DNA of 64,000 bases from Ariolimax columbianus. Its lineage: Eukaryota > Mollusca > Gastropoda > Stylommatophora > Arionidae. Below are positions 1,612 through 55,399 of the stretch, in pieces. The stretch is taken from NCBI GenBank assembly GCA_036924085.1, contig JAVGWX010000011.1, forward strand, positions 32,424,386 to 32,488,385, in the 5' to 3' direction. Position 1 is the stretch's first letter, and each line of letters starts with the position of its first letter. The notes under the pieces are model-generated. The model searched no databases and had not been told where the DNA came from. It saw only the letters and a list, made by a program, of their open reading frames with translations. Made by a program: the position numbers and the translations under genes.

Positions 1612-4368
1612 CTTCCTCTTCTTCGTACGCTGTCAAACTTTTTTTTTTTCGAAGAAAGCAGCGGTCATCCCGAGGCTGTCGACACTGCCATAGAGCTTGT
1701 CTAGTGTTGCCATTGATGATGGCCACATGTGCTTTCTCTGGTCCTCGTATGTCGGGCAGTTTTGCATCAGATGTTCAGCGGTCATTTTCCCGGTACCACA
1801 AGTGCATTCATCAGTGCCACCTATCTTCAATTTATTGAATAGGTGGTACCTCAGTCTATTGTGGCCTGTGCGGAGTCTGAAGACAACGACCTGCTCTCTT
1901 CTGTTCAACTGGTAATAGGCATCGTTTTTTGTGTAGCCAGTATGTTCTGTTTCCCATTTGGCTATGTATCTGGGCCTAATAAGCCTTTTGGACTCTTCGT
2001 AGGTCACACTAGAATCTGGTTGTGGTAGTCTTGCACCTTCTTTTGCCAGTCAGTCTGCCTCCTCGTTACCTTGGATGGTACAGTAGGATGGAACCCACTG
2101 AACCACTACTCTTTTTGGTACGGATTGCTGGCATAGTTGACAGAGTACTGCTCTTATATCAATAAGTTCAGTATTTTTCTGGCTTTTTAGTGATGTGACT
2201 ACGGCCAGGGCATCTGTAAACAGGACTATCTGGCTTTCATTGCTTTCGCCTGTCAGCATTGCTTCTACTGCAGCCCTCAGTGCCTCTGCCTCCGCTCTGA
2301 AATAGCTTGAGAATTTTCCAATTGCCACTGACAGTGTTATTCTTATACCGTTTGGTAGGCTCAGGAATACCCTTGCCCCTCCGTTCTGTGTTGTGTTTGT
2401 TACAGAACCGTCGGTGTATGCATGGGTCCATTCCATGCTTGGATAGTTTTCCGTTATGTACCTTAGGGTTATGTCTCGTCTTTTTTTTTCAGTATGGCTG
2501 TTCTTGTTTCCAATACCTGGTATATTTTCTACCACCTCCGGAATGATATGCTGCTTCCAGGTAGGCTTTTGTGTACAGTAGGGATGGGCTTTGGTGTTGT
2601 TATGGTGTTCATAGGGTCTTCGCTCATCTTTACTTTGGCTATTTCTGCAAAGTTTCTCCGCTTTAGTTTCCCATTTCCAAATCTATTTAGTCTCTGATGC
2701 ATTGGATGGTATGTCAGTCTTCTGAGTTTCTCTGCTGGGCACTGCGGTCTCTTCTGTCGGTCATGGATTGCAGATTTGTAATCTTTTCAAGTTCTATAAT
2801 TGGCGTTGAACAATTTGTTCCTCCTGTTATAACTCTCATGGCTTGGTTTTGAAGTTTGCTAATTTTATCGAAGTTCGCCTTTGCTGCTGTTGTCCATGCC
2901 GCAATGCCATACTCGAGAACTGGTCTCACTCTTCCAGTGTACAGTTTCTTTAGTATTCTTTCGTCTGCTCCCCAGCTTGTGACAGCAAGTTTCTTCACGA
3001 TTGTCATTCTTTGTCTGGCTCTCATTCGGTTTCTCTCAATCTGACTTTTCCATATCATGCGGCGATCAAATGTGACCCCCAAGTAGTTTATGTTGTCGTT
3101 TTGCTGCAGGTATTTGCCGTTAAGACTTTTTTTGGTGTTCTGGGGGTTATTTGAAAGCGCGAATATCGTATATGTTGTTTTTTCCTCGTTTATTTTGACC
3201 AACCATGAGTTCGCCCACTCCTCCAGCGATGTTAGGGCCTGCTGCATCCGATTGCTTGCTACGGTGAGATTTTTTTTCAGAGGTCCACATAGCCAGATCA
3301 TCTGCAAACATGGAGCTGTGGACTATTCTTTGTATATTGTCTGTGATGTTTATATACACCAGAAAAAGTGTGGGTGACAATACTCCCCCTTGGGGTACTC
3401 CATGCTCCAGTGTCACCTTTTTGCTCATCTGCCCTTGTACTTGAACTCTGGCCTTTCTGTTTTTGAGATAGTGGCTGATCCATCTGTACATTTTCCCACA
3501 TACTTCACTTCTTCGTAGCTTGACTTTAAGTTCCTCTTTCCACTCCTTGTCAAATGTCTTCTCTAGATTCACCCAAACCGCTACTGTATGCTTTTTCTCT
3601 TGGTAAGCATCCTCTATTTCCTGGGATATGAGAGTTATCTGGTCCTCAGTGGATCTGAGTTGTCTAAATTAACTTGCTGTGGAATTAGTATGTGTTTTTC
3701 TTCCAGGTGCCACATCAGTCTTGTGTTTATCATACGCTCCTTCAGTTTTCCTACACAGCTCAGTAGACTGATAGGCCTGTATCCATTTGGATCTGTTCTA
3801 TCTATTTCTTTCTTTGGTACTGGTATAAGTACAGCATCTTTCCATGCCTGCGGTACAATTCCCCTTTTCGAGCTTTGGTTCAGGACTGATAGTAACTTCC
3901 CCTTTGCTTGTTTGGGCCAACCCCATCAGCATTTCGTTTGTTACCCCATCTTTTCCGGGCGAATTCTTTTTCTTTAAAGTTCTCATGGCCTCTTCCATTT
4001 CATTCATTGTTAGTTTTGCCATCATGTGCTCCTCTGGTGCCATCTTGATGTTATTGTGGCTCTTTTGTTCTTCACTAATGTCTGTATGCCTGTCTGTAGG
4101 GACATCAATGTGGTTTGCTCTGGCATAATGTTCTATAAAGGCGTTTGCTGCTTTTTTTCCAGTAAGCATGTTGTCGCCCTGCTTGATGGTAATTTGTTTA
4201 TTTGATGGTGTTTCGTCATTCATGACTCTGACTAAATTCCATAGTTCGTTCCCTTCTTTATCTAAATTGAGGTTTTTCTGTTTTTCCAGCTGTCTCTTGT
4301 TATTTGGTTTAGTGTTCTTTTGTATTTCGCCGTGATGGCCTTGAGGGCGATATTTGCCTCCATAGATT

Positions 4369-4456
<88 letters not shown>

Positions 4457-5165
4457 ATGTTCCTAGCATTTGAGACTTCATCCTCCGCTTTCTGCAGTTC
4501 ATGATTTCAATATGGCTTGTAGTTTTTCCTTGCCCCTCTTGGGATGGTTTCGGTGGCTGCTTGCAGTATTGCTTGGCTTAGGCGTTCCACCATAGGTTTC
4601 ATATTGTTATTTCGTGTGTTGATGGTTTCAAACAGTCCATCTGTCAGTATTGCAAATCTGTCCCAGTCGGCTCGTTTATAGTTCCAACGTGGGAGCGGTT
4701 TTATTTCCCGTGGGCCTACTTCCATATCAACTTCTAGCCTAATTGGCCTGTGGTCGCTACCTGCCAATTGCTTGAGCCCCTGGCGGTCTATTTTGTGGTG
4801 AATATCCCCGGTGGAAAAGGCCAAGTCTGGAGTGGAAGTGGAATGCCATGTTCTAGAATAGAAGCTTGGGCTGTCCTACGGCCTATTGATAAGATAGAGA
4901 TTTGTGTCTATCTCCCAGTCTTCCACTTCATCACCTCTGTTGTCTGTGTCTGAATATCCCCATCTCCCCATCTCTCCGAGTGGCTGTTGAAGTCTCCAAC
5001 CACTAGGCAGCTTGAGTCCTTGATTTCCATACTCAAGAGCGACAGGTCTTTAGTTGGGTGGGCCGTACAGGTTGAAGATGCGGATCTTCGTTTCTTGTGT
5101 CATTATGTCGACTCCTACAATTTCTGCTTGTCCAGTGTGATTGACAGCTACCGCGCTACCCGGTA
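1612..5165 (-). mobile_element. LINE-A copy 1: endonuclease-RT-RNase H retrotransposon, decayed
   Basis: This minus-strand element reads from the endonuclease to its 3' end. Near 5000 is an endonuclease loop GDFNSHSERWG. The RT is in pieces from about 4300 to 2714, with FADDLAMW at about 3300-3275. RNase H covers 2535-2050, with YTDGSV, an AEAEAL glutamate, TDALAVV and GNEEAD catalytic positions. A C-terminal knuckle of C-x-C-x(8)-H-x(4)-C type lies at 1800-1750. The 3' end is CGTACG followed by an imperfect (GAA) tail at about 1612-1627. Frameshifts and stops break the frame many times, and a long (CT)n tract has expanded inside it at 4370-4455. It is the longest LINE-A copy here and shows the family's domain order. 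The 5' boundary is uncertain and no target-site duplication was found. Confidence 0.85.
4370..4455. repeat. (CT)n microsatellite inside LINE-A copy 1
   Basis: About 85 bases of CT dinucleotides with three TG interruptions. It lies in the linker between the endonuclease and RT of LINE-A copy 1 and produces the Arg-Glu runs seen in the minus-strand translation. Confidence 0.9.
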
Positions 5166-5400
5166 TGCGTCAGGGTAAGACGCCGGCCAGTAAGGTACTG
5201 GAGGTCGCGCTGTTCAAATCACGATGAGACAATCATTTATTCACGTCGACCTTCTGGCATTCCCGCGGATCTCTGTGTAGTAGAGAATGGACGCCCGTGC
5301 GCCGCGTTAAGAATCCGTCGACAGTTCGAAATCGAAAAGAGTAGCCTTAACGGCCGCTGCGTGGGCATAATTCAAAATTATATTTAAAATCTACCCAATC
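5135..5400 (+). mobile_element. Possible tRNA-derived SINE abutting LINE-A
   Basis: The block starts with a run resembling a tRNA-like promoter: GGGTAAGACG is A-box-like, and CTGTTCAAATCAC about 45 bases later is B-box-like. A GC-rich body follows with no coding potential. The spacing and order fit a polymerase III SINE head. No second copy lies in the window and no target-site duplication is visible. It may equally be unrelated GC-rich DNA. Confidence 0.3.
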
Positions 5401-7216: not shown

Positions 7217-7229
7217 GAGGGCAGTGTTG
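7217..7229 (+). repeat. Left 13-bp target-site duplication of the 28S-derived retroposon
   Basis: GAGGGCAGTGTTG occurs here and again, identical, at 8879-8891 immediately after the (GAA)n tail. Direct repeats of this length at both ends of a tailed insert are the mark of target-primed reverse transcription. Confidence 0.85.
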
Positions 7230-7607
7230 CGGCCAACACTGAAATGACTGACATGCCAAGACCACTTTCTGGGGTCTAATATGGAACTGGTGCTGGATTT
7301 AGACCCTCAGAAATCTGGGGTTATGCCCTCTGTGGCTCGGTTGGTCTGCATCCAGTGTTTGATGAAGGAATTGACGGAAGAGCACTATCAGGAGTGGAGC
7401 CTGAGGCTAAAATTGACTAAACACGCCAATAGTGTAGAACGACTGTCAAAAGAGAGCACCTTCGGAGGGTCTAATAGTGAACATGTGCTGGTATTAGACC
7501 CACGGAAGACAGGTCAGTCTCCAAATCCCCAAATGAAAGAGCGGAAATCGCAGAAATCGCAGGCTCCAGAAACTGGGCCATTGACAAACTAAAAGCCCTC
7601 TATTGAT

Positions 7608-8075
7608 ACGGTCTGGCTAATATTGAACGGGTGCTGGAAATAGACCCTCTGAAGACAGGTCAGCTTTACCCTACAAATGACAATGCTCTGCTACGGTAAT
7701 CCTGCTAAGCCCGAGAGGAGCCGCAGACATTTTGGTTCACGTACTAGGCGGATAAGCCAACGGTTCGAGGTGAGGGATTACGGCCGAACGCCTCTAAGCC
7801 AAAAATCCCGCCCAAAAGCAGCCCAGCACGAATGCAAAGGGAGGCTTCGACATGGTGGGGACCTCGGGGTCACGCTCCAGCCCCGCCCGGTCAAGCCGCA
7901 GAATGAGGTCTCTGCCGTCCGCTGATAAAAGCGGGCGGGAAGCTGCTCGATATTCACCCAATACGGCGATGAGGAATGAAATCATTTGTAGAAGACTTAG
8001 TTCTCGGTCGGGTGCCCTAAGCAGTAGATCAGCTACCTCACTGCGAACTGCTGAGACTCAACCCTTGACCATGTC
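7608..8075 (+). pseudogene. Diverged 3' terminal segment of 28S rRNA
   Basis: Order and wording follow the last several hundred bases of animal 28S rRNA. The block near GCTGGAAATAGACC...GACAGGTCAG comes first, then TTTACCCTAC and GGTAATCCTGCT. CGAGAGGAGCCGCAGACATT, ACGCCTCTAAGCC and CCCGCCC follow. The end is AATCATTTGTAGAAGAC, AGCAGTAGATCAGCTACCTC and GAGACTCAACCCTTG. It differs from functional rRNA at many normally invariant positions and lacks the rest of the molecule, so it is not a working rRNA gene. It forms the core of the surrounding retroposon. Confidence 0.85.
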
Positions 8076-8109
8076 CGCTCCCTAGGCGGACATCTCCGTG
8101 CAAGACTAG

Positions 8110-8245
8110 GCTTGTCACCTGGTCAAATGCACTATTTCGAGAGGAATCACAGGTCGCTGACATTTGGTCCACGTGCTTGGCTGATAAGCTACCACCTGAG
8201 GGATTACGGCCGAACGCCTCTAAGCCAGAATCCCGCCCAAAATCT
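8110..8245 (+). pseudogene. Second partial copy of the 28S 3' segment
   Basis: Repeats the part of the rRNA from TTCGAGAGGAATCACAGG through GACATTTGGTCCACGTGCTT and GGGATTACGGCCGAACGCC to AGAATCCCGCCC. It is closer to the canonical 28S wording at several places than the first copy (for example CCAGAATCCCGCCC), which suggests the two copies diverged independently after an internal duplication. Confidence 0.75.
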
Positions 8246-8778
8246 CAGCACCGCTGAGATGGGAGGCTACGACATGACTGGGGCTTGTGTCCCGGCCCAA
8301 TCGAGCCGCAGGAATGCACCTGGTAAAATGCACTCCTTCCTCGCTCTTTGCATCTGTCTGCTATCAGTTATTCCAATGGACGCAGAAGAGATGCAGTCCA
8401 GCGGACACTGCACCTCCTGTCCTATGGGGGCAAGCTCCCGGGTGGCGGGGAATGCTAGGCGTACCATCACTGCAGATGAGCCGAGAAAATAGAGCGAGCA
8501 AAAAGATACCTCACTCATATGCATATGCTACGTTCCTGGCAGGACGTGACGATCCTGGGAAAAAGTCACACTGGACTGCCTCTCTTCCGGGATAGTACAA
8601 ACTAGTACATAGTCCATCATATCATTGCCAAACGCTATAGACACGAGTAGGGAAGACTCGATAGTCCTGCAAGACAACTTCCCAAGAGAGACAACTCTGA
8701 CCAAAAACAACTGCTGCCTTGCAGTTAGGCTGGAGACAGCCAAAGGCTAAGGAGGGCAACCCTACAGAAACGCCTGTT

Positions 8779-8850
8779 GAAATCGGATGCACTGAGCCAC
8801 TGGCTAACAAATTAAATCAGTGCAACGTAAATATCGCTGTAAACAGCGTA
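8779..8850 (+). repeat. SINE-type conserved 3' domain in the 28S-derived element
   Basis: GAAATCGGATGCACTGAGCC followed by ACTGGC, an A-rich spacer and CAGTGCAACG parallels GAAGTCGGAACACTGGGCC...CACAGTGCAACG in the tRNA-headed SINE at 23891-23945. ATATCGCTGT...AAAC also parallels the SINE copy at 60.1 kb. This links the rRNA-headed element to the SINE family of the genome. Confidence 0.6.
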
Positions 8851-8878
8851 CGATGAAGAAGAAGAAGAAGAAGAAGAA

Positions 8879-8891
8879 GAGGGCAGTGTTG
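8879..8891 (+). repeat. Right 13-bp target-site duplication of the 28S-derived retroposon
   Basis: Identical to the left repeat at 7217-7229. The exact border with the (AAG)n tail is ambiguous by one or two bases. Confidence 0.85.
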
Positions 8892-12594: not shown

Positions 12595-14225
12595 TTCTTC
12601 TTTTCTTCTTCTGCGTACGCAATCAGACAGTAACCATTATTTTTTCGAAAAAAGCGGCGGTCATCCTGAGGCTGTCGCCACTGCCATAGAGCTTGTCTTG
12701 CAGTTCCACTGGTGATGGCCACATCTGCTCTCTCTGATCCTCGTATGTCGGGCAGTTCTGCAGCAGATGTTCAGCGGTCATTTTACCAGTACCGCACGGG
12801 CATTCGTCGGTACACCCTATCTTCAATTTGTTGAATAGGTGGTACCTCAGTCTATTGTGGCCAGTGCGAAGTCTGAAGACAACGACCTGCTCTCTTCTGT
12901 TCAACTGGTAATAGGCATCGTTTTTGGTGTAACCAGTATGTTCGGTTTCCCATTTGGTCATGTATCTGGCTTTGATAAGCCGTTTTGACTCTTCGTTCGT
13001 CATACTGGTATCTGTTTGTGGTAGTCTTGCACCTTCTTTTGCCAGTCTGTCTGCCTCTTCGTTGCCTTGGATGTTGCAGTGTGATGGGACCCACTGTACC
13101 ACTACCCTTTTTGGTGCGGACTGCTGGCACAGTTTGCAGAGTGCTGCTCTTAAGTCATTAAGCTCAGTGTTTTTCTGGCTTTTTAGCGCTGTGACTACGG
13201 CGAGAGCATCTGTCAGCAGGACTATATGGCTTTCATTTTCACTGTGTGTCACCATTTCTTCCACTGCCGCCCTCAGTGCCTCTGCCTCCGCTCTGAAATT
13301 GCTTGTGTACTTACCAGTAGCGAATGACAGTGTTATTTTTCTGCCATTTGGTAGGTTCAGGAATGCTCCTGCCCCTCCGTTCTGTGTTGTGTTTGTTACA
13401 GAACCGTCTGTGTATGCATGGGTCCAGTCCATGCTTGGGTAGCTTTTCGTTATGAAGCTTAGGGTAGTATCTCTCCTTTCTTTTTCAGTCTGGCAGTTTT
13501 TGTTTGCAATACCTGGTATATTTTCTACCACCTCTGGAAATATATCCTGCCTCCAGGTAGGTTTTCGTACAGTAGTGATGGGATTTGGTGTTGTTAGTGC
13601 GTTTATGGGATCTTCGTGCATCTTTGCTTTGGCTATTTCTGCAAAGTTTCTCCGCTTTAGTTTCCCATTTCCCAAATTGTTTAGTCTCTGGTGCATTGGA
13701 TGGTCGGTCAGTCTTCGGAGTTTCTCTGACTGCAGCTGGGCTCTGCAGTCTCTTCTATCGGTCATGGATTGCAGTTTTGTAATCTTTTCAAGTTCTTCAA
13801 TTGGCGTTGACTTCATGCCACCTGTTATAATTCTCATGGCTTGGTTTTGAAGTTTGCTAACTTTATCGAAGTTCGCCTTCGCTGCTGTTGTCCATGCCGC
13901 AATGCCATACTCGAGAACTGGTCTCACTCTTCCAGTGTACAGTTTCTTTAGTATGCCTTCGTCTGCTCCCCAGCTAGTGCCAGCAAGTTTCCTCATGATT
14001 GCCATTCTTTCTCTGGCTTTCATTCGGTTTCTCTCAATCTGACTTTTCCATGTCATGCGCCGATCAAATGTGACTCCCAGATAGGTTGGGTTGTCGTTTG
14101 GCTGCAGGAATTTGCCATTTAGACTTAATTTGGTACTTTGGGGTTTTAATGAAAGCGAGAATATTGTGCATGTGGTTTTCTCCTCGTTTATTTTGACCAG
14201 CCATGAGTTCGCCCACTCTTCCAGC
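12595..14225 (-). mobile_element. LINE-A copy 2, inserted in LINE-C with a 12-bp TSD
   Basis: This 5'-truncated LINE-A of about 1.63 kb is flanked by TTGCAGGTGTTC at 12583-12594 and 14226-14237. It starts within the RT, just after the active site, at LEEWANSWLVKINEEK. It contains the rest of the RT thumb, the full RNase H (YTDGSV, FRAEAEAL, TDALAVV, GNEEAD all present), the C-x-C...H...C knuckle and the 3' end GCGTACG plus (GAA)n. Because it lacks the endonuclease and the FADD box it cannot move itself. The clean duplication shows that it arrived by target-primed reverse transcription. Confidence 0.9.
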
Positions 14226-20469: not shown

Positions 20470-20780
20470 CTAGGCTTCGTTCGTTCTCAATCTCCTTATA
20501 CCAAACCTGGAAAGGGCTTAAGTAGCAGAATGTAGTCTAGAGAACGGAATGTGTTGTGTCGTAGTTTACAGTTTCATTGTGATATTTGCACCTTTCGGTC
20601 CAACACATCCGACTTCAGCAAGCATTTTTTTAGTACCGGGATAGCAGTCCTTCTTCGATCCCTAATCCTTAGCCAGTTTGCTCTGTTGCAGCCTGTTATC
20701 CAGGATCACCGCGTGTAGGTCTTGGTTTGATCTATAAAGTGTTTAGTTTCCAATCGCAAGCGAAAATGGCAACATCATCA
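20470..20780 (-). mobile_element. SINE with conserved 3' domain
   Basis: Read on the minus strand, it carries GAAGTCGGATGTGTTGGACC, then GAAAGGTGCAAATATCAC and CTGTAAACTACGACACAAC. The end is GGAGATTGAGAACGAACG. The same block recurs at 32.94, 41.17 and 60.02 kb. Upstream lies a diverged head with GGGATCGAAGAAGG in place of a B box, so a tRNA origin is possible but decayed. Confidence 0.7.
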
Positions 20781-21177: not shown

Positions 21178-21188
21178 ATCAAAGAAAC
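21178..21188 (+). repeat. Left TSD of LINE-A copy 3
   Basis: ATCAAAGAAAC is repeated exactly at 23481-23491, just after the (GAA)n tail. The match may extend two bases (AG) upstream into the tail. Confidence 0.85.
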
Positions 21189-21283
21189 CTCTCAAGCAAA
21201 CAGCAAGAGAAAGCTGGAAAAACAAAACGGAAAGCCTAAACCTGGACAAAGACGGCAACAAGCTATGGAAGCTAGTCAGAGCC

Positions 21284-22219
21284 ATGAACGACGAAACCCC
21301 GTCAAACAAACAAATTACCATCAAGCAGGGCGAAAACTTGCTCACCGGTAAGAAAGCCGCAAACGCTTTTGTCGATCACTATGCCAGAGCAAACCACATC
21401 GAGGTCCCTGCAGATAGGCATACAGACATTAGTGAACAGCTAAAGGGGCACGACAACATCAATACAGCACCTGAAGAGCACATGATGGCCAAATTAACAA
21501 TGAGCGAAATGGAAGAGGCTATGAGAACATTTAAAAAAAGGAAATCTCCCGGAAAAGACGGGATAACAAACGAAATGCTGATGGGGCTGGGCCAAACAGC
21601 GAAGAGGAAACTGCTATCGGTACTGAACCAAAGCTGGAAAAGGGGAATTGTACCCCAGGCATGGAAAGACGCAGTACTGGTGCCAGTACCAAAAACTGGA
21701 AAGGACAAAACAGATCCAAATGGACACAGGCCCATCAGCCTACTGAGCTGTGTCGGCAAGCTGATGGAACGTATGATAAACACCAGACTGATGTGGCATC
21801 TGAAAGAAAAACGAATACTAATTCCACAGCAAGCCGGCTTTAGACAGCACAGATCCACTGAGGACCAGGTCATCCTCATAGCCCAGGAAATAGAAGATGC
21901 CTACAAGGCACAGAAACACACAGTAGCTGTTTGGGTGGATCTGGAAAAGGCATTTGACAAAGTCTGGAAAGACGGAGTCAAGCTAAGAAGAAGTGATGTT
22001 TGTGGGAAAATGTACAAGTGGATCAACCACTACCTTAAACAAAGAACGGCCAGAGTCCAAGTACAAGGGCAGATGAGCAAAAAGGTGACACTCAAGCAGG
22101 GAGTACCCCTAGGGAGCAGACGAAGGCATACTAAAGAAACTGTACACTGGAAGAGTGAGACCAGTTCTCGAGTATGGCATTGTGGCATGGACAACAGCAG
22201 CAAAGGCGAACTTCGATAA
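21284..22219 (+). pseudogene. LINE-A copy 3 RT frame, active site deleted
   Basis: 311 codons. The RT fingers and palm are well kept up to KVTLKQGVPLG (about residue 278). After the deletion the frame is wrong (SRRRHTKETVHWKS is a shifted reading of LINE-A thumb sequence). Without the FADD aspartates no reverse transcription is possible. The correct thumb frame resumes at 22155-22604. Confidence 0.8.
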
Positions 22220-22649
22220 AGTTAGCAAACTTCAAAACCAAGCCATGAGAGTTATAACAGGAGGCATGAAGTCAACGCCAATTGTAGAACTTGAAAAGAT
22301 TACAAAACTGCAATCCATGACCGATAGAAGAGACTGCAGAGCCCAGCTACAGTCAGAGAAACTCCGAAGACTGACTGACCATCCAATGCACCAGAGACTA
22401 AACAATTTGGGAAATGGGAAACTAAAGCGGAGAAACTTTGCAGAAATAGCCAAAGCAAAGATGCACGAAGATCCCATAAACGCACTAACAACACCAAAAC
22501 CCATCACTACTGTACGAAAACCTACCTGGAGGCAGGATATATTTCCAGAGGTGGTAGAAAATATACCAGGTATTGGAAACAAAAACTGCCAGACTGAAAA
22601 ATAAAGGAGAGATACTACCCTAAGCTTCATATCGAAAAGCTACCCAAGC

Positions 22650-23459
22650 ATGGACTGGACCCATGCATACACCGACGGTTCTGTAACAAACACTACACAG
22701 AACGGAGGGGCAGGAGCATTCCTGAACCTACCAAATGGCAGAAAAATAACATTGTCATTCGCTACTGGTAAGTACACAAGCAATTTCAGAGCGGTGGCAG
22801 AGGCACTGAGGGCGGCAGTGGAAGAAATGGTGACACACAAAGAAAATGAAAGCCATATAGTCCTGCTTACAGATGCTCTCGCCGTAGTCACAGCGCTAAA
22901 AAGCCAGAAAAACACTGAGCTTAATGACTTAAGAGCAGCACTCTGCAAACTGTGCCAGCAGTCCGCACCAAACAGGGTAGTGGTACAGTGGGTCCCATCA
23001 CACTGCAACATCCAAGGCAACGAGGAGGCAGACAGACTGGCAAAAGAAGGTGCAAGACTACCACAAACAGATACTAGTATGACGTACGAAGAGTCAAAAC
23101 GGCTTATCAAAGCCAGATACATGACCAAATGGGAAACCGAACATACTGGTTACACCAAAAACGATGCCTATTACCAGTTGAACCGAAGAGAGCAGGTCGT
23201 TGTCTTCAGACTTCGCACTGGCCACAATAGACTGAGGTACCACCTATTCAACAAATTGAAGATAGGTGGTACCGACGAATGCCCGTGCGGTACCGGTAAA
23301 ATGACCGCTGAACATCTGCTGCAGAACTTCCCGACATACGAGAATCAGAGAGAGCAGATGTGGCCATCACCAGTGGAACTGCAAGACAAGCTCTATGGCC
23401 GCGGCGACAGCCTCAGGATGACCGCCGCTTTTTTCGAAAAAATAATAGTTACTGTCTGA
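22650..23459 (+). pseudogene. LINE-A copy 3 RNase H and C-terminal knuckle
   Basis: 269 codons, in frame with the thumb segment at 22155-22604 but separated by one stop. RNase H begins WTHAYTDGSV. The second catalytic position is changed (FRAVAEAL), while TDALAVV and GNEEADRLA are kept. The C-terminal knuckle is CPCGTGKMTAEHLLQNFP, where the final Cys of the knuckle has become Phe. Confidence 0.8.
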
Positions 23460-23744
23460 CTGCGTACGAAGAAGAAGAAGATCAAAGAAACTGGCTACAC
23501 ATTCTTTTGAAAGAAAAAAACCTGCGATGTATGTCAACTCGTTCGCTAGATTGTCTAACCAAAGAAAATGTGTTAATGGTGAATTTAAAACTTTCACGGG
23601 GAAACAAATAAAAACACTACACCGATCAGCTTTTATGAGTCATGAGTGACCAGCCTAGAGAATATGAAGATTAAGATATATAGGGAACTGAACACTGTCA
23701 TCTTGTCAGTCCCAAAGTCAAAGAAGCTCATCATCCTTCGTATG

Positions 23745-24000
23745 GAACGGCGTGGGCTAGTGGTTAAGTGGCGCGGCTCATAATCCGAAGGTGCTGGGTT
23801 CGATTCCCATCACAGCACCGGCCGTTATCCCCGTGAGGCAAACCCTTATAAAATGCACAAGGATGCAGACCCTTACATAAAATGCATGCCGAAGTCGGAA
23901 CACTGGGCCGACAGGCGCAAAATAAAAACCACAGTGCAACGCACACAGACTTGGGGATTGGAGAAATAAGCAGAACGCAAACAAATAAACAATTAAAAAA
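23745..24000 (+). mobile_element. tRNA-headed SINE with intact A and B boxes
   Basis: The head reads GGCGTGGGCTAGTGGTTAAG (A box) and, 40 bases on, GGGTTCGATTCCC (a perfect B box), inside a tRNA-like fold. These are internal polymerase III promoter elements. The middle holds a short duplication (CCCTTATAAAATGCA and CCTTACATAAAATGCA). The conserved 3' domain GAAGTCGGAACACTGGGCC begins at 23891, and the end is GGAGAAATAAGCAGAACGC plus an A-rich tail. A diverged, internally deleted copy lies at 42063-42218 on the other strand. Confidence 0.85.
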
Positions 24001-24284
24001 TGCCTCCTTGGTTACTGTAATGCTAGTGTGGAAACAGACCAAATTGTGATCGTATCAAAACTCAACCTTACACCTAGCTGAAGCGCCATCATCAGGGTAA
24101 ACAAATCTATGAAGAAAATCGACATTTCAAAAGTGGGCAGTAGAGGACTAGCAGAGAACTGTCAGCTGAAGGATGAACAGTCAGTTATGTATGGCATCGG
24201 TCGGGTACTCAAAAAGACACTGTCTACTTAATTAAAGGTTTCACACAATCTAGGACATGAGCCCGGACTGGTTGCTGGGACATT

Positions 24285-29159: not shown

Positions 29160-30019
29160 TTTTCGGTTCTAGACCTATCTGATATCATTTGTCTGATTTT
29201 GTTAAGTTTGTTGTTGAGGGTTGCAAGAAAAAAAATCTTTTCAGTTCTAGACCTATCTGATATAATTTTTCTGATTTTTTGGGGGTTTTGTATGTGCTTT
29301 TTTATTGCGGGGATGGGGGAGGGGTAAGGAGGGGGGGGGGCAATGTTTTCAAGAAAAAAACTGGTTTCAAATGTAGGTCTTTCTCATATCCTTTTGTCTG
29401 ATTTTGTTGGGGTTTTGTGTGTGCTTTTTTATTAGGGGGGAGGAGGTAGGGGTGAGGAGGGTGGGGGGCAATCTTTTGAGGACAAAAACTTGTTTTTAAA
29501 TGTAAGTCTTTGTTATATCCTTTTGTCTGATTTTGTTGGGGTTTTGTGTGTGCTTTTTTATTGGATGGAAAAGGTAGGGGTGAGGAGGGGGTGGGGAGGC
29601 AATGTTTTCAAGAAAAAAACTGGTTTTAAATGTAGGTCTTTACAATATCCTTATGTCTGATTTTGTTGGGGTCTCGTGTGTGCTTTTTTATTGGAGGGTG
29701 GGGGTAGGGGTGAGGAAGGGGTGGGGAGGCAATGTTTTCAAGAAAAAAGCTGGTTTCAAATGTAGGTCTTTCTTACATCCTTTTGTCTGATTTTGTTTGG
29801 GTTTTCTGTGTGCTTTTTTATTGGGGGAAGGAGTAGGGGTGAGGAGTGGGGGGGGGGGGGGGGGCGATGTATCAACAAAAAAAAACAGGTTTGAAATATA
29901 GGTCTTTCTTATATCCTTTTGTCTGATTCTGTTGGGGTTTTGTGTTCTTTTTTATTGGGGGGAAAGGGTAGGGTAGAGGCGGGGGTGGGGGCAATGTTTT
30001 CAAGAAAAAAACTGGTTTT
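29160..30019. repeat. 130-bp G-rich minisatellite, left block
   Basis: Units spaced 127-135 bases start with CAATGTTTTCAAGAAAAAAA at 29341, 29469, 29600, 29730, 29865 and 29992. Each holds GTAGGTCTTTCTTATATCC, TTTTGTCTGATTTTGTTGGG, TGTGTGCTTTTTTATTGG and a variable G-rich end with runs of up to 16 G. The array was split by LINE-A copy 4. Frames through it are artefacts. Confidence 0.9.
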
Positions 30020-32283
30020 CTTCTTCTTCTTCTGCGTACGCAGTCAGACAGTAACCATTATTTTTTCGAAAAAAGCGGGGGTCATCCTGAGGCTGTCGCC
30101 ACTGCCATAGAGCTTGTCTTGCAGTTCCACTGGTGATGGCCACATCTGCTCTCTCTGATCCTCATATGTCGGGCAGGTCTGCAGCAGATGTTCAGCGGTC
30201 ATTTTACCAGTACCGCACGGGCATTCGTCGGTACACCCTATCTTCAATTTGTTGAATAGGTGGTACCTCAGTCTATTGTGGCCAGTGCGAAGTCTGAAGA
30301 CGACGACCTGCTCTCTTCGGTTCAACTGGTAATAGGCATCGTTTTTGGTGTAACCAGTATGTTCGGTTTCCCATTTGGTCATGTATCTGGCTTTGATAAG
30401 CCGTTTTGACTCTTCGTACGTCATACTAGTATCTGTTTGTGTTAGTCTTGCACCTTCTTTTGCCAGTCTGTCTGCCTCCTCGTTGCCTTGGATGTTGCAG
30501 TGTGATGGGACCCACTGTACCACTACCCTTTTTGGTGCGGACTGCTGGCACAGTTTGCAGAGTGCTGCTCTTAAGTCATTAAGCTCAGTATTTTTCTGGC
30601 TTTTTAGCGCTGTGACTACGGCGAGAGCATCTGTAAGCAGGACTATATGGCTTTCATTTTCTTTGTGTGTCACCATTTCTTCCACTGCCGCCCTCAGTGC
30701 CTCTGCCACCGCTCTGAAATTGCTTGTGTACTTACCAGTAGCGAATGACAATGTTATTTTTCTGCCATTTGGTAGGTTCAGGAATGCTCCTGCCCCTCCG
30801 TTCTGTGTAGTATTTGTTACAGAACCGTCGGTGTATGCATGGGTCCAGTCCATGCTTGGGTAGTTTTTCGTTATGTATCTCAGGGTTGTATCTCCTCTTT
30901 CTTTTTCAGTCTGCCTGTTTTTGATTTCAATACCTGGTATATTTTCTACCACCTCTGGAAATATATCCTGCCTCCAGGTAGGTTTTCGTACAGTAGTGAT
31001 GGGTTTTGGTGTTGTTAGTGCGTTTATGGGATCTTCGTGCATCTTTGCTTTGGCTATTTCTGCAAAGTTTCTCCGCTTTAGTTTCCCATTTCCCAAATTG
31101 TTTAGTCTCTGGTGCATTGGATGGTCCGTCAGTCTTCGGAGTTTCTCTGACTGCAGCTGGGCTCTGCAGTCTCTTCTATCGGTCATGGATTGCAGTTTTG
31201 TAATCTTTTCAAGTTCTACAATTGGCGTTGACTTCATGCCACCTGTTATAATTCTCATGGCTTGGTTTTGAAGTTTGTTAACTTTATCGAAGTTCGCCTT
31301 CGCCGCTGTTGTCCATGCCGCAATGCCATATTCGAGAACTGGTCTCACTCTTCCAGTGTACAGTTTCTTTAGTATGCCTTCGTCTGCTCCCCAGCTAGTG
31401 CCAGCAAGTTTCCTCATGATTGCCATTCTTTCTCTGGCTTTCATTCGGTTTCTCTCAATCTGACTTTTCCATGTCATGCGCCGATCAAATGTGACTCCCA
31501 GATAGGTTGGGTTGTCGTTTGGCTGCAGGAATTTGCCATTTAGACTTAATTTGGTACTTTGAGGTTTTAATGAAAGCGAGAATATTGTGCATGTGGTTTT
31601 CTCCTCGTTTATTTTGACCAGCCATGAGTTCGCCCACTCTTCCAGCGATGTTAGGGCCGTCTGCATCCGATTTCTTGCTATGGTGAGATTCTTTTCAGAG
31701 GTCCACATAGCCAGATCGTCTGCAAACATTGAGCTATGTACTCTTCTTGGTATATTCTCTCTAATATCGTTTATATATACCAGGAAGAGTGTGGGTGACA
31801 GTACTCCCCCTTGGGGTACTCCCTGCTCGAGTGTCACCTTTTTGCTCGTCTGCCCTTGTACTTGGACTCTGGCCGTTCTTTGTTTGAGGTAGTGGTTGAT
31901 CTACTTGTACATCCTCCCACAAACATCACTTCTTCTTAGCTTGACTCTAAGTCCATCTTTCCAGACTTTGTCAAATGCCTTTTCCAGATCCACCCAAACA
32001 GCTACTGTGTGTTTCTGTGCCTGGTAGGCATCTTCTATCTCCTGGGCTATGAGGATGACCTGGTCCTCAGTGGATCTGTGCTGTCTAAAGCCTGCTTGCT
32101 GTGGAATTAGTATTCGTTTTTCTTCCAGATGCCACATCAGTCTGGTGTTTATCATCCGTTCCATCAGCTTGCCGACACAGCTCAGTAGGCTTATGGGCCT
32201 GTATCCATCTGGATCTGTTTTGTCCTTTCCTGTTTTTGGTACTGGTACCAGTATTGCGTCTTTCCATGCCTGTGGTACAAATC
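30020..32283 (-). mobile_element. LINE-A copy 4: best preserved LINE-A, inserted in the minisatellite
   Basis: A 5'-truncated LINE-A of about 2.26 kb begins inside the RT fingers (VPQAWKDAILVPVPKTGKDK). It carries the whole RT palm (WVDLEKAFDKVWKDG; FADDLAMW at about 31715), thumb, RNase H and C-terminal knuckle. The 3' end is GCGTACGCAGAAG plus (GAA)n. The only break of the frame is one TAG at 31901-31903, where other copies have Trp (YKWINHYLK). In RNase H the catalytic Glu position reads Val (FRAVAEAL). At the 5' junction CTGTGGTACAAA occurs twice in tandem. No clear TSD was found, perhaps because the repeat array was rearranged. Confidence 0.9.
30044..31837 (-). pseudogene. LINE-A copy 4 main frame: RT active site, thumb, RNase H, knuckle
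   Basis: 597 codons open from MTLEQGVPQGG. FADDLAMW is at about residues 38-45, the RT thumb follows, RNase H spans about 315-450 (YTDGSV, TDALAVV, GNEEADRLA), and the knuckle is CPCGTGKMTAEHLLQTCPTY near 550. Upstream of the first Met the same frame continues beyond the single TAG stop to about 32280. The endonuclease is missing, so it could not be autonomous even without the stop. Confidence 0.85.
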
Positions 32284-32830
32284 TGTGGTACAAAAAATAC
32301 AAAATTGCTTTTTTTATTGGGGGAGGGGGGGAGGGGGGGAGGGGTGAGGAGGGGGGGGAGGCAATGTTTTCAAGAAAAAAACGTTTCAAATGTAGGTCTT
32401 TCTTATATCCGTTTGTCTGATTTTGTTGGAATTTTTTGTGTGTGCTTTTTTTATTGGGGGGAAAGGGTAGGGGTGAGGAGGGGGGGGGGGCCAATGTTTT
32501 GAAGAAAAAAACTGGTTTTAAATGTAGTTCTTTCTTATATCTTTTTCTCTGATTTTGTTGGAGTTTTGTGTGTGCTTTTTTTATTGGTGGGGAGCGGGGA
32601 GGGAAGGGGTAAGGAGGGTGTATGTTTTCAAGAAAAAAACTGGTTTCAAATGTAGTTCTTTCTTATATCCTTTTCTCTGATTTTGTTGGAGTTTTGTGTG
32701 TGCTTTTGTATTGGGGGGGGGGGGGAGGGGATATGGAGTGATGAGGGGGGGGGGAGAATGTTTTCAAGAAAAAAACTGGTTTCAAATGTAGTTCTTTCTT
32801 ATATCCTTTTGTCTGATTTTGCAAACAGGC
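32284..32830. repeat. 130-bp G-rich minisatellite, right block
   Basis: Continues the array with units at 32362, 32492, 32621 and 32758. G runs reach 13 bases. The first stretch after LINE-A (32284-32305) is not array sequence. Confidence 0.9.
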
Positions 32831-32934: not shown

Positions 32935-33085
32935 ATACTTCTTCGTTTGTTCCCAAATTCCCGCTACAAAGCTTGAAATTGGCTTTGCCAGTAGCAATAT
33001 GTAGTCTCGAAAACGAAATGCGTTGTGTCGTAGTTTACAGCTTGCACATTTCGGTCTGTCACATCTGACTTCAGCATGGCATTTT
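32935..33085 (-). mobile_element. SINE copy (conserved 3' domain)
   Basis: The minus strand matches the SINE at 20.5 kb: CTGAAGTCAGATGTGACAGA, GCTGTAAACTACGACACAAC, GCATTTCGTTTTCGAGACTA, and an end AACAAACGAAGAAG. It is more diverged and lacks a recognisable head. Confidence 0.7.
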
Positions 33086-37164: not shown

Positions 37165-39638
37165 GAACAAGAGGCACGACAACATTAATATGGCACCAGA
37201 GGAGCACATAATGGCAAAAACTAACAATGAATTAAATGGATGAGGGCATGAGATCTTTAAAGAAAAAAATAGAAATCGCCCGGAAAAGATGGCGTAACAA
37301 ACGAAATGCTGATGGGGTTGGGCCAAACAGCAAAGAGAAAGTTACTATCAGTCCTGAACCAAAGCTGGAACAGGGGAATTGTACCGCAGGCATGGAAAGA
37401 CGCTGTACTTCTACCAGTACCAAAGAAAGAAAAAGATAGAACAGATCCAAATCATTACAGGCTTATCAGTCTACTGAGCTGTGTAGGAATACTGATAGGG
37501 CGTATGATAAACCTCAGACTGATGTGGCATCTGGAAGAAAAACACATACTAATTCCACAGCAAGCAGGCTTTAGACAGCACAGATCCACTGAGGATCAGA
37601 TAACTCTCATAGCCCAAGAAGTATGGATGCTTATCAGGAGAGAAAAAACACACAGTAGCGGTTTGGGTGGATTTAGAAAAGGCATTTGACAAGGTCTGGA
37701 AAGAGGGACTTAAAGTCAAGCTACGAAGAAGTGAAGTTTGTGGGAAAATGTACAGATGGATCAGCCACTACCTCAAAAACAGAACAGCCAGAGTTCAAGT
37801 GCAAGGGCAAATGAGCAAAAAGGTGACACTTGAGCAGGGAGCACCCCACGGGGGACTACTGTCACCCACACTCTTCCTGGTATAAATAAATAACATCACA
37901 GAGAATATACCAAGAAGAGTCAACAGCTCCATGTTTTCAGACGATCTGGCTATATGGACCTCTGAAAAGAATCTCACCATAGCAAGTAATCGGATGCAGC
38001 AGGCCCTAACATCGTTGGAGGAGTGGGCGAACTCATGGCTGGTCAAAATAAATGAGGAAAAAAACAACATGTACGATATTCTCGCTTTTAAACAAACCCC
38101 AAAACACCAAAATAAGTCTCAACGGCAAATACCTGCAGCCAAACGAAAATCCAAACTACCTGGGAGTTATATTTGATCGGCGCATGACATGGAAAAGTCA
38201 GATTGAGAGAAACCGAATGAAAGCCAGACAAAGAATGACAATCATGAGGAAACTTACTGGCACCAGCTGGGGAGCAGACGAAAGTATACTAAAGAAACTG
38301 TACACTGGAAGAGTGAGACCAGTTCTCGAGTATGGCATTGCGGCGTGGACAACAGCAGCAAAGACGAACTTTGACAAAATTAGCAACCTTCAAATCCAAG
38401 TCATGAGAGTTATAACAGGAGGCATGAAGTGAACGCCAATTGTAGAACTTGAAAAGATTACAAATCTGCAATTCATGACCGACAGAAGAGACTGCAGAGC
38501 CCAGCAGCAAGCAGAGAAACTCAGAAGACTGACAGACCATCCAATGCATCAGAAACTAAATAATTTTGGAAATGGAAAACTAAAGCGGAGAAACTTTGCA
38601 GAAATAGCCAAAGCAAAAATGAGCGAAGACCCTATGAACGCATTAACAACACCAAAGCCCATCCCTGCTGTATGCAAACCTACCTGGAGGCAGCATATAT
38701 TTCCAGAGGTGGTAGAAAATATAACAGGTATTGGAAACAAGAACAGCCAGACTGAAAAAGAAAGAAGAGACATAACCCTGAGATACATAACGAAAAACTA
38801 CCCAAGCATGGACTGGACCCATGCATACACCGACGGTTCTGTAACAAACACAACACAGAACGGAGGGGCAGGGGTATTCCTGAGCCTACCAAATGGTAGA
38901 AAAATAACACTGTCAGTGGCAACTGGAAAATACTAAAGCAATTTCAGAGCGGAGGCAGAGGCACTGAGGGCTGCAGTAGAAGAAATTGTAACAGAAAAAA
39001 GAAATGAAAGCCATATAGTCCTGTTTACAGATGCCGTGGCCGTAGTCACAGCACCAAAAAGCCAGAAAAATACTGAACTTAATGAGTTAAGAGCAAAACT
39101 CTGTCAACTAAGCCAGCAGTCCGCACCAAATAAAGTAGTGATACAGTGGGTTCCATCCCACTGTAACATCCAAGGCAACGAGGAGACAGACAGACTGACA
39201 AAAGAAGGTGCAAGACTACCACAACCAGATTCTAGTGTGACCTACGTAGAGTTCAAAAGGCTTATTAGAGCTAAATACATGACCAAATGGGAAACAACAT
39301 ACTGGTTACACAAAAAACGATGCCTATTACCAGTTGAACCGAAGAGAGCAGGTCGTGTTCTTCAGACTTCGCACAGGCCACAATAGACTGAGGTACCACC
39401 TATTCAATAAATTGAAGATAGGTGGCACTGACGAATGCTCGTGTGGTACCGGGAAAATGACCGCTGAACATTTGCTGCAAAGCTGCCCGACATACGAGGA
39501 TCAGAGAAAGCAGATGTGGCCATCACCAGTGGCAACACTAGACAAGCTCTATGGCAGTGTCGACAGCCTCAGGATGACTGCTGCTTTTTTCGAAAAAATA
39601 CAGGTTGACGTCTGACAGCGTACGACGAAGAAGAAGAA
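37165..39638 (+). mobile_element. LINE-A copy 5 with TSD, decayed
   Basis: A 5'-truncated LINE-A of about 2.47 kb lies between 11-bp repeats. It starts in the linker (GGCACGACAACATTAATATG), then RT fingers and palm: QAGFRQHRSTEDQ and MDLEKAFDKVWKEG at 37667. The active site reads FSDDLAIW with Ala changed to Ser. A stop lies in LFLV*INN at about 37883. Thumb and RNase H follow with two or more frameshifts (YTDGSV near 38830). The knuckle is CSCGTGKMTAEHLLQSCPTY at about 39437, and GCGTACGACGAAG plus (GAA)n ends it. The RNase H Glu codon is the ancestral one here. Confidence 0.9.
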
Positions 39639-39649
39639 GAATCTCGAGT

Positions 39650-41166: not shown

Positions 41167-41329
41167 CTTCTTCTTCTTCTTCTGCGTTCGTTCTCAATCT
41201 CCCGCTACCAAACCATGAAAGGGCTTAAGTAGCAGAATGAAGTCCATAGAACGGAATGCGTTGTGTCGTAGTTTACAGCTTGACTGCAATATTTGCACCT
41301 TTCGGTCCAACACATCCGACTTCAGCAAG
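41167..41329 (-). mobile_element. Short SINE with perfect 12-bp TSD
   Basis: 163 bases between two copies of TCACATATATTT. On the minus strand it starts CTTGCTGAAGTCGGATGTG, continues through GACCGAAAGGTGCAAATATT and GTAAACTACGACACAACGC, and ends GAGAACGAACGCAGAAG plus (AAG)n. It contains the conserved 3' domain but no tRNA head, so the copy is 5'-truncated at the domain boundary or belongs to a headless subfamily. Confidence 0.85.
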
Positions 41330-41434: not shown

Positions 41435-42800
41435 TTCAGATCAGATCAGGTCATTCCGTAACCGGTGAGGTCATTGGGGCACACATGAAGACATCCTCAC
41501 AAGCCCATGCCGCCCTTCTATGTCAGCGGCCGCTGAATGTGCCTCTTCTGGTCGGAGATTGGTCCATTCTTTTATGTTGACCTCCCACCTCTTTTTGGGA
41601 CTGCTTTTTCTTCATCTACCTTGCACCTTTCCAGTGCAGGATCTTATTTGCAAGAATATTTGGTCTCGATATGTGACAGTACCAGGCGAGTTTCCTTCTT
41701 TTGACATGTTGCCAAGAGGTCTTCAAAAGGCCCTATTGATGTTGTAATTCTGTCTCGTATTTCCTCATTTGTAACTCGATTTGTGTACGTGACGTTTGAA
41801 AGTCTTTGGAAACATCTCATCTCCAAGGCCTGTATCCTTCGCTGAAAGTCAGCTGTAACTCCCCATGTCTGACAAGCACACAGAAATATATTGACAGGAT
41901 CAATGTACGCATTAATCTGATTTTCGTGCCTAGTGCAAACCGTTTATCTTTGCCAGATTTTGATAAGCTATGCAAGCGCCGCTATTGTCTATGGTATTCT
42001 GGCCAGCACCTTACATTTTGATCCTTCATCACTGACAATCGAAACCAGATTTTTTTTGATTTTTTTTGCGTTCGCCTTATTTCTCTAATCCCCAAGGCGT
42101 TGCACTGTGGTTTTTATTTTGCGCCTGTCGGCCCAGTGCATCGGACTTCAGCATGCATTTTATGTAAGGGCCTGCTTCCCCCCGCTTTTTATAACCACTA
42201 GCCCACGCCGTCCCCTGAACCCAGATATTTAAAAAGGTCAACCACTTCGAGCTCCTGGCCATTAGCTTTTATCCTACTGTTGAAGCCCTCGGCGTTGTTG
42301 GTCATTATTTGTCTTTCCAACGTTTATCTCCATAGCATAGTCAAGAGCTGTTTCATCGAGCCTTCTGACCCATTCCTGGAGTTCTGCTTCTAAACCCGCC
42401 AACTCGTCGATGTCATCTGCAAAACGAAGATTGGTAATCGTTCGGCCCTCTAACTTGACAGCACCAACGTGACCTCAAGTGCCTCATTCATAATTCCCTC
42501 AAGGAATATATTTAAAAGATTGTACAACTCTGTCTAGTACCAACTGATGTGCGAAACATGTCCCCTCGCCTCCCATTCATAAGAACTGCGCTGTACACAT
42601 TGTCATACAGGTTTTCAAGGACCTTCATAATATTTCCATTCATCGGATACATCTTCATGGTTGCCCATATTGCTTTATGAAATACCCTATAAAACGCCTG
42701 CTTAAAATCAACAAACACATGTTACAGTTTTAACTGCAGTTCTATATATTTCCCGCTTACCAGCCTTAAATTAAATGTCTGTTCTTTAGTGCTTCTTCCC
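41435..42800 (-). mobile_element. LINE-D RT region, interrupted by a SINE
   Basis: The minus strand gives MFVDFKQAFYRVFHKAIWAT at 42718 (the motif FVDFKKAFDRVWH with Asp changed to Tyr), then VGTRQSCTIF. LRFADDIDELAG at about 42430 has both active-site aspartates. RRLDETALDYAMEIN is next, and LFKYLG at about 42230. After a SINE insertion the frame resumes with SIVSDEGSK at about 42045. Then come ALEMRCFQRLSNVTYTNRVT near 41830 and the end of the element, with TTACGGAATGACCTGATCTG at about 41450. Confidence 0.75.
42063..42218 (-). mobile_element. tRNA-headed SINE inserted in LINE-D
   Basis: The minus strand begins GGACGGCGTGGGCTAGTGGTT (the A box as in the SINE at 23745), jumps across an internal deletion that removed the B box, and continues with the 3' domain (CTGAAGTCCGATGCACTGGG, CCGACAGGCGCAAAATAAAA) to GCGAACGC and a run of A. 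Flanks AAATATCTGGGTTC and AAAATCTGGTTTC on the minus strand are an imperfect duplication of the LINE-D target. Confidence 0.75.
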
Positions 42801-53793: not shown

Positions 53794-55399
53794 TAACTTA
53801 ACTTAACATCTTTATACTGGTTTAGAAGACCCTGCAGAGTCTGTATACAACCAGTTACATTTACATCACCTTGCTCTAAAATCTATGCGCATCCAGTTTA
53901 TTCTTAAATGCATTAACTGTCCCTGCCTCCACTACCTCCCCTAGCAATGCATTCCAAGCAGACACCACTCTCTGACTAAAAGAATATTTCCTAATATCTA
54001 ACCTGGACCTCTCTTTAATCAGCTTGTAGCTATGCCCTCGTGTTATTGTAGGTGGCTGTATTTTAAAAAACTTGTTATAGTCTAATTTATCGATTCCTCT
54101 GATCATCTTATAAACCTGTATTAAGTCACCACGAATTCTTCTCTCTTCGAGACACTGTAGGCCGGTTTTTCTGAGTCGTTCCTCATAACTGTAATTCTGG
54201 GATCCCACTATCATCTTTGTCGCTCTTTTTTGTATTCTTTCTAGCATGTTTATGTCCCCTCTATGATAAGGACTCCACACCTGTACACAGTACTCCAATT
54301 TAGGTCTAACTAAAGCTTTATACAGTTTGACGATCACTTCCTTGCTCCTATGTTTAATATTTCTTTTTATCATACCTAACATTGCATTTGCCTTTTTCAC
54401 TGCTACCTTAACTTGCTCACTCACCTTTCCTGTATGATCTATTATAACCCCTAGGTCCCTTTCCTTATCTATCTTTCTAATATTGTTTTCTCCCATTCTG
54501 TAATTATGTTCCATATTGGATCTACCCATGTGGATGACTGTACATTTATCTACATTAAACTCCATTTGCCAGCTTACAGACCATTCTCGAATTTTATCTA
54601 AATCCGACATCAATATATCCACTTCCGCTTTAGATGAGACACTACTGCATAGTTTTGTGTCATCAGCAAATTTTGCAATCATGGATCTCATATCAATGTC
54701 CAAATCATTTATATATATCAAGAACAAAATTGGTCCCAAAACCGAGCCCTGTGGCACACCACTTTTCACTTCACTCCACTCAGAGTACTCCTTATTTATG
54801 CCCACCCTCTGCCTTCTTCCCGTTAACCAATTTTCAATCCATTTGGCAACTTCGCCACCTATTCCATGTGATTTTAACTTTCGAAATAATCTTTGATGAG
54901 GTACTCTATCAAAGGCCTTTGCAAAGTCTAGATAAATAACATCCACTGGCTCCCCTTTATCTATGATTTTAGTAACCTCCTCCATGAATTCTAAGAGATT
55001 TGTTAAGCATGATCTCCCTCTAGTAAACCCATGCTGACTATTTCTAATTAGATTAAATTTTTGTAAATGCATTACAATGTTTTCTTTGATTATTGACTCT
55101 AACAATTTACAGACTATGCTCGTTAAACTCACCGGTCTATAATTTGCCGGATCTGATTTTTTGCCTTTTTTGAATAAGGGGATCACTCCTGCATCTTTCC
55201 AATCCCGTGGAACAATCCCTTTTGTAAGTGATTGAAAACATAATATAGCCAATGGTTTTGCTAGTTGGTTTCTAATTTCATACAGCAATTTTGGGTGAAT
55301 ACCATCTTGACCTGGACATTTATTCACTTTCAACCCCTCCAATTTTTTAAAAACCATTTCCTCTGTAATACAGATTGATCTTAATCCCGCTGTATCCAT
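53794..55399 (-). mobile_element. CR1-like LINE inserted in LINE-B
   Basis: A 5'-truncated element of about 1.6 kb whose 3' end is (TTAAG)n-like (ACTTAACTTAACTTAAC on the plus strand at 53791). It cuts the LINE-B RT between SLTSCICKT and MECIINLRLQW. A few extra bases at the right junction (GGAATGGATACA) make a near-palindrome with the element's own ATGGATACAG start, so no clean TSD can be read. Its RT frame is fully open, making it the youngest-looking CR1-like copy here. Confidence 0.85.
53876..55399 (-). CDS. CR1-like reverse transcriptase, 507 codons, open
   Basis: This frame holds a complete RT domain. Fingers have VNKCPGQDGIHPKLL and RDWKDAGVIPLFKKGKK, with NYRPVSLTSIVCKLLE following. 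QHGFTRGRSC is at about 120. The palm has VIYLDFAKAFDRVPHQRL at about 153, with its catalytic Asp. GVPQGSVLGPILFLIYINDL is at about 215, then the active site MIAKFADDTKLCSS at about 240. The thumb and C-terminal part follow (LYKALVRPKLEYCVQVWSPY; RIQKRATKMIVG). The endonuclease is absent because of 5' truncation, so it is not autonomous. The first Met is a truncation artefact, not the natural start. Confidence 0.9.
   Translation of the reverse strand: MDTAGLRSICITEEMVFKKLEGLKVNKCPGQDGIHPKLLYEIRNQLAKPLAILCFQSLTKGIVPRDWKDAGVIPLFKKGKKSDPANYRPVSLTSIVCKLLESIIKENIVMHLQKFNLIRNSQHGFTRGRSCLTNLLEFMEEVTKIIDKGEPVDVIYLDFAKAFDRVPHQRLFRKLKSHGIGGEVAKWIENWLTGRRQRVGINKEYSEWSEVKSGVPQGSVLGPILFLIYINDLDIDMRSMIAKFADDTKLCSSVSSKAEVDILMSDLDKIREWSVSWQMEFNVDKCTVIHMGRSNMEHNYRMGENNIRKIDKERDLGVIIDHTGKVSEQVKVAVKKANAMLGMIKRNIKHRSKEVIVKLYKALVRPKLEYCVQVWSPYHRGDINMLERIQKRATKMIVGSQNYSYEERLRKTGLQCLEERRIRGDLIQVYKMIRGIDKLDYNKFFKIQPPTITRGHSYKLIKERSRLDIRKYSFSQRVVSAWNALLGEVVEAGTVNAFKNKLDAHRF

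Follow-up and report, generated by a model that had tools for sequence, protein, structure and literature searches.

The element at positions 7230-8878 of the window, by which we mean the whole 64,000-nucleotide stretch of Ariolimax columbianus DNA that was analyzed, is in our judgment likely a 5′-truncated copy of a 3.5-kb, non-autonomous, internally deleted LINE derivative. Both this derivative and an intact LINE begin with 18S rRNA behind a likely 5′ external transcribed spacer (5′ ETS), and we predict that Pol I makes their RNA by reading on from pre-rRNA into copies that reside in ribosomal genes. The ETS-18S leader and a start common to the full-length copies make it probable that the ribosomal-gene polymerase launches the family, and this supports in substance an earlier proposal of a Pol I or read-through transcript.

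Comparison with other copies and with an intact LINE on contig C5 resolves the window copy into an old rRNA-derived LINE 5′ UTR, the start of the LINE frame and the LINE 3′ end, all on the forward strand, as are the other features of this copy. A preliminary description of the locus had reported a perfect 13-bp target-site duplication (TSD), a (GAA)n tail and internal duplications, and all three are borne out. The TSD, GAGGGCAGTGTTG, is exact at 7217-7229 and 8879-8891, where its GA overlaps the GAA tail, and ∼1.65 kb lies between the two repeats; at up to two mismatches the sequence occurs five times in the window (twice exactly) versus 1.30 expected, and 0 of 100 shuffles reach five matches. 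Tandem-repeat detection places the tail, (GAA)8.7 with a 100% match, at 8855-8880. A 28S stretch that we take to be the peptidyl-transferase region is found three times by internal repeat comparison (7276-7322, 7471-7517 and 7617-7663, the last running on into the 28S 3′ end), and further duplications are present in the element. The copy opens with CGG (7230-7232), the last three nucleotides of the 18S leader, which places its 5′ truncation at family position 1873 of 3524.

The rRNA-derived body that had been proposed is confirmed for the 28S 3′ end at 7682-8074, identified by Rfam as LSU_rRNA_eukarya (62.1 bits, E 3.7e-12, model 3005-3399 of 3401; 65.6 bits when a smaller stretch is scanned), but the proposal was incomplete, in that it missed an old 18S fragment at 7365-7425 (SSU_rRNA_eukarya, E 1.2e-10, 41.8 bits, under the gathering score of 50). 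The family consensus gives 88.9% identity between this fragment and the modern leader. A second, diverged 28S stretch lies at 8120-8243 (model 3017-3153, E 7.1e-5, under the gathering score). The non-rRNA portion of the LINE 5′ UTR and the LINE frame start occupy 8377-8832, with 83% identity to the C5 LINE, and the LINE 3′ terminus, GCGTACG-(GAA), at 8843-8869 is common to five LINE copies of the window. The stretch at 8760-8827, previously read as a SINE-like domain, does resemble, at 74% over 73 nt, a SINE-like repeat found at 42169-42098, but it is equally part of the LINE frame start. The rRNA parts of the window copy are decayed and its TSD and tail are pristine, which suggests that the source had already diverged from rRNA before insertion. 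As a separate observation, the end of the 5′ TSD and the first element bases (7222-7241) form an inverted repeat, CAGTGTTG-CGGC-CAACACTG, perhaps by chance or microhomology.

The genome (2.29 Gb, 401 contigs) was searched for further copies. The family search gave 5,527 first-look candidates, and all 40 that were scored, the window copy included, match at 97-100% identity and lie on 17 contigs. A single copy, which had been named as the outcome that would speak against a family, is not what was found: the join between modern 18S and body occurs at 5,820 places in the genome (≤2 mismatches), and the reversed pattern, used as a control, at none. As had been anticipated, the dispersed copies carry independent TSDs. 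A TSD of at least 10 bp surrounds the whole unit in 31 of the 40, with sequences that differ between copies; the lengths are mostly 12 (14 copies) or 13 (9 copies) among the 40 scored, and 24 of the 31 begin with GA when leading A's are ignored. The other nine comprise four copies with a 5′ end outside the fetched sequence, one at an N gap, one with 8 bp and three in which none was found.

One region of C1 (103571649-105417321) is a tandem array of mostly ∼57-kb units, with at least 28 junctions on one strand (103.57-105.42 Mb). Ribosomal DNA was considered for these junctions and rejected on reading one unit (601 + 1,001 nt), where another LINE lies upstream and no 18S follows the tail; this marks a tandem segment carrying one element copy there. 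In the same unit, the sequence 3′ of the element tail recurs ∼2 kb upstream of its junction (104144650).

Pattern searches of viral contigs returned 0 matches, and a pattern search of genome contigs returned two places that we attribute to chance. There was no match to the element in the phage search, and none of its open frames matches the protein collection at E ≤ 0.01. The plasmid search gave a single 61-bp match (87%) to the 18S fragment, in the 1,764-bp unannotated NZ_CP050525.1 (Acinetobacter baumannii), which is probably stray eukaryotic 18S.

Longer copies show where the family begins. Among the 39 other scored copies, 21 reach the first base of the window copy and then extend at least 13 nt upstream into 18S. 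With 5 kb of upstream sequence fetched for 20 of these, 13 are seen to share one identical start nucleotide, (A)TCTGGGGTAGTTG (with a single-base change in one copy), 1.80-1.88 kb upstream of the window copy's first base, and each has its own 12-14-bp TSD. The start pattern of these full-length copies is (A)TCTGGGGTAGTTGTCTCGCC, in its shortest form (A)TCTGGGG. Six of the remaining seven are truncated inside the leader, and one meets an N gap. A consensus built from the 13 runs to 3,524 nt and comprises 635 nt 5′ of 18S, the first ∼1,240 nt of 18S and then the body, which is the same after 18S in 13/13; individual copies differ from it by 0.2-1.5%, segment by segment. From its position directly upstream of 18S, the 635-nt segment is likely the 5′ ETS. 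The 28S rRNA head that had been assigned to the element is thus not its head, since full-length copies begin with 18S behind this likely ETS. Among ten loci scanned with Rfam, the SSU model scores 915-951 bits in six, is partial in two and is absent from two that are strongly truncated; the 28S part is detected in all ten.

The partner of this family is found at the C5 locus (L073, L072), which has two relatives whose bodies match the family to position ∼3,501-3,510 and then continue into LINE coding sequence. The first is intact, with a single 1,304-codon frame in which Pfam identifies endonuclease (PF03372/PF14529), RT (PF00078) and RNase H (PF00075). With an APE-type endonuclease, RT and RNase H together in one protein, it is an RNase H-bearing APE-type LINE, presumably of the I group, with Nimb or Ingi as candidate clades. 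In the intact LINE, the ETS-18S leader starts at the family's common 5′ nucleotide, the 3′ end is a (GAA)n tail, and both flanks carry the 12-nt TSD ATATCAATGTCC. The insertion splits another LINE, and a paralogous, uninterrupted site within such a LINE lies in the window at 54690-54702 (context 54670-54722), where the 12-nt sequence is found once. This uninterrupted site indicates that leader and LINE inserted as one unit.

LINE comparison also locates five truncated copies of the C5 LINE family in the window, with 84-97% identity: 1612-5168, 12598-14225 and 30018-32283 on the minus strand, the last 96% identical to the intact LINE, and 21181-23481 and 37169-39641 on the plus strand. Tandem arrays of ∼128-130 bp lie beside and inside LINE copies (29266-30019, 32326-32821). 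The 3′ end motif GCGTACG-(GAA)n has eight matches in the window versus 0.14 expected, and five of these are LINE 3′ ends. Protein relatives of the window's LINE, among the matches listed, come from the molluscs Elysia, Littorina, Batillaria, Gigantopelta, Ostrea and Dreissena where named, and one is labeled as a Solemya gill symbiont. The element body, its last ∼20 nt excepted, matches the 5′ UTR and frame start of the C5 LINE. Because these are fused to the last ∼20 nt of the LINE, we read the window element as an internally deleted derivative. LINE-type mobilization, as the preliminary description proposed, is supported; the LINE 3′ end, the (GAA)n tail and TSDs are common to element and LINE.

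The C5 LINE and the family consensus were compared part by part, with identities computed without gaps. In the leader, mismatches number 9/627 in the ETS (1.4%) and 2/1234 in 18S (0.2%; 99.84% identical). Going inward along the body, they rise to 9/130, 18/144, 105/519 and 78/502 (7, 12.5, 20 and 15.5%), and the leader (11/1861) differs from the last two body parts (183/1021) with a Fisher P of 1.6e-72. The simplest reading of a leader that is 99.84% identical in its 18S, on bodies that are 7-20% apart, is that the leader has likely been refreshed from functional rDNA. The body values do not form a clean gradient, and we count this against our best explanation. Within the 13 full-length copies, singletons are spread evenly (96 per kb in the ETS, 69 in 18S and 76 in the body), which indicates that decay after insertion is alike in leader and body. 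Variants at five body sites, perhaps from two events, set apart two groups, each of five copies; 12 leader alleles are common to two copies, none of them within a body group, and no leader variant is linked to the body groups.

Older layers of the same kind are present. A decayed 18S/body junction recurs inside the family body (145 bp, 79%), the C5 LINE holds two further decayed copies of this junction, and 18S extends past the usual junction by 158 nt in L072 and by 405 nt in L078. The decayed inner junctions and the variants with longer 18S suggest that leader renewal happened repeatedly. In the genome as a whole, 18S beyond the junction is found at 223 places, and no regular tandem cluster is seen among the matches listed. 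In L078 (C6:12642440-12643240), the 405-nt extension is followed by an old 18S piece that joins 28S at a GGGT common to both, a fusion that may illustrate the origin of the body's 18S/28S layers. Elsewhere, L077:70-180 (C1:27732050) has a full-length ETS start inserted in 18S at GATAGCTCTTTC, 53 nt beyond the usual junction. This double leader was considered as a second rDNA residence or an amplified lineage and rejected; its junction occurs once in the genome (≤2 mismatches), as befits one nested insertion.

An insertion into 18S exactly at the junction, with the 12-nt GACTCAACACGG, which begins with GA as do 24 of the 31 TSDs, as its TSD, is attractive, but this idea is weakened by L072, whose body start, directly after the junction, can be aligned in register with decayed 18S (score 22). 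The body start of the window family scores 13 against 18S, and shuffles of that stretch reach 15.5 (300 shuffles). Given the register seen in L072, the boundary may mark the point where refreshed and old 18S met, by conversion or a template switch, and not necessarily an insertion site. Neither an rDNA-resident copy nor an rDNA array was recognized in the assembly. An exact search for the element tail joined to downstream 18S gave 0 matches with an approximate 18S query one base off that of this genome, and intact 18S across the site was found at one place, with one mismatch allowed and a query two bases off this genome's 18S.

These observations can be accommodated by a cycle that passes through the ribosomal genes. 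Source copies of the LINE and its derivative would sit in the rRNA gene, where Pol I would read through them from the rDNA start; position 1 of the full-length copies, judging from its location and common use, would be that start. The LINE protein would then recognize the shared 3′ end and prime on the (GAA)n end of the read-through RNA, and target-primed reverse transcription would write the transcript into a new, dispersed site. Source copies would remain in rDNA, and there the upstream rRNA would be kept fresh by exchange among units (concerted evolution); earlier rounds would have left the decayed rRNA layers that now form the 5′ UTR. Since dispersed copies would lack a promoter, most of them would be inert. 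In its fullest form, this account has a LINE and its parasite derivative living in 18S genes, where Pol I launches them together with the entire ETS-18S leader, scattering thousands of copies outside rDNA and continually adding old leaders to the 5′ UTR, which would thereby become a layered record of past rDNA residence; we are inclined to accept this form, with modest confidence.

The leader could be acquired without any rDNA-resident copy if the LINE RT, while copying element RNA, jumped via the old 5′ 18S stretch onto abundant pre-rRNA and copied to its 5′ end. Jumps of this kind are considered to underlie L1 chimeras with 28S rRNA (n = 18; PMC13174262) and tripartite chimeras (PMC2104539). 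Recurrent jumps should scatter, however, whereas one and the same modern-18S/body join is found at all 5,820 places (≤2 mismatches) and in the C5 LINE, and a single jump would yield a copy without a promoter. We regard template switching as unlikely, and that we do not place it lower is chiefly because the L072 body start aligns in register with 18S past the boundary.

The model of the preliminary description, in which the 28S 3′ end joined a SINE 3′ module to give a new SINE, could draw on the SINE-like stretch at 8760-8827, on the LINE-type tail and on the existence of 28S-derived SINEs, of which SINE28 is an example. The C5 LINE contradicts it, as the 5′ UTR and frame start of this resident, autonomous LINE match all but the last ∼20 nt of the body. 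Full-length copies that open with 18S behind a likely ETS, a length of 3.5 kb and the seven TTTT runs of the consensus also speak against a SINE fusion, and we consider it very improbable. Dispersed rRNA pseudogenes, or an assembly artifact joining rDNA to repeats, would be in keeping with an assembly in which no rDNA array is recognized and 18S runs beyond the junction at 223 places. This is even harder to credit, because TSDs of at least 10 bp flank the whole unit in 31/40 copies, 18S is followed by the same body in 13/13 full-length copies, and the C5 LINE has a paralogous empty site.

Transcription of retroposons usually depends on Pol II or Pol III, and R2-like elements use Pol I yet stay in rDNA. 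A Pol I launch, if true, would be an uncommon strategy for a mobile element with dispersed copies, and a dispersed family with an rRNA precursor leader would show rDNA as a launch pad for genome-wide retroposition. The leader start would show where Pol I initiates in this species, and the decayed 18S and 28S layers offer a record of how a LINE 5′ UTR is built. On the practical side, rRNA-based annotation and contamination filters can meet thousands of non-rDNA 18S pieces in such genomes.

Two SINE-like families were also seen in the window. One, of ∼150 bp, lies at 20475-20628, 32938-33085, 41174-41329 and 60023-60176, and two of its copies terminate with GAACGAACGCAGAA, which resembles the LINE 3′ end. 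The other lies at 23780-24001 and 42049-42194, one copy having a tRNA-like head, GGTTCGATTCC, and a core that resembles the LINE frame start (8760-8827); this family may have taken the core from the LINE or given it.

Among known classes, a SINE is short and has an internal Pol III promoter from tRNA, 5S or 7SL; the consensus here does not fit this, as it runs to 3,524 nt and starts in likely ETS and 18S. ARAGORN predicts no tRNA gene in the window, and a permissive 9-mer B-box search gives four matches; both are weak as promoter tests. The element does share its 3′ end with a partner LINE, as SINEs can. It has the makeup of a SIDE, in which both LINE ends are joined and the coding part is lost, as it matches the C5 LINE 5′ UTR to ∼3501-3510 and then has only the LINE 3′ terminus. 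SINE28 is likewise a retroposon with a part derived from the 28S 3′ end, and is described as a SINE; a 28S-derived 5′ head is not found here, the 28S part being an old layer inside a LINE 5′ UTR and internal in full-length copies. In the open-licence literature searched, at the level of titles and abstract openings, no LINE or SINE that is dispersed and carries an ETS-18S leader is described.

The R-elements (R1, R2, and the 18S-inserting R7 and R8) are LINEs thought to be transcribed with rDNA and are site-specific within it. The copies examined here, in contrast, lie at varied sites and carry ETS-18S as cargo, and their LINE is a single-frame, RNase H-bearing one. Pokey of Daphnia (PMC3315735) lives in rDNA and elsewhere, as is proposed for the present family, but it is a DNA transposon, and the accessible part of its account mentions no rRNA leader. 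The L1/28S rRNA chimeras (n = 18) also fuse 28S segments to a LINE, mostly in sense; in the report on them (PMC13174262), they are a few single events ascribed to template switching or ligation, whereas the structure here is heritable and amplified. The nearest parallel in logic is offered by the R2 and R2/R1 SIDEs found in Drosophila (PMC3414825). These LINE derivatives, too, are non-autonomous and internally deleted, and they depend on being co-transcribed with 28S and on the 3′ end of an autonomous LINE. They differ in that they insert in rDNA and are freed from the rRNA by a 5′ ribozyme; here the 40 scored copies are dispersed over 17 contigs instead of sitting at one rDNA site, the rRNA leader is retained in full, and general Rfam scans list no ribozyme at the gathering threshold (window and 10 loci) or at E ≤ 1 (a smaller stretch). 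What the two systems would have in common is an internally deleted LINE derivative that uses the 3′ end of its autonomous partner and is co-transcribed with the rRNA genes, the last of these being suggested here by the ETS-18S leader.
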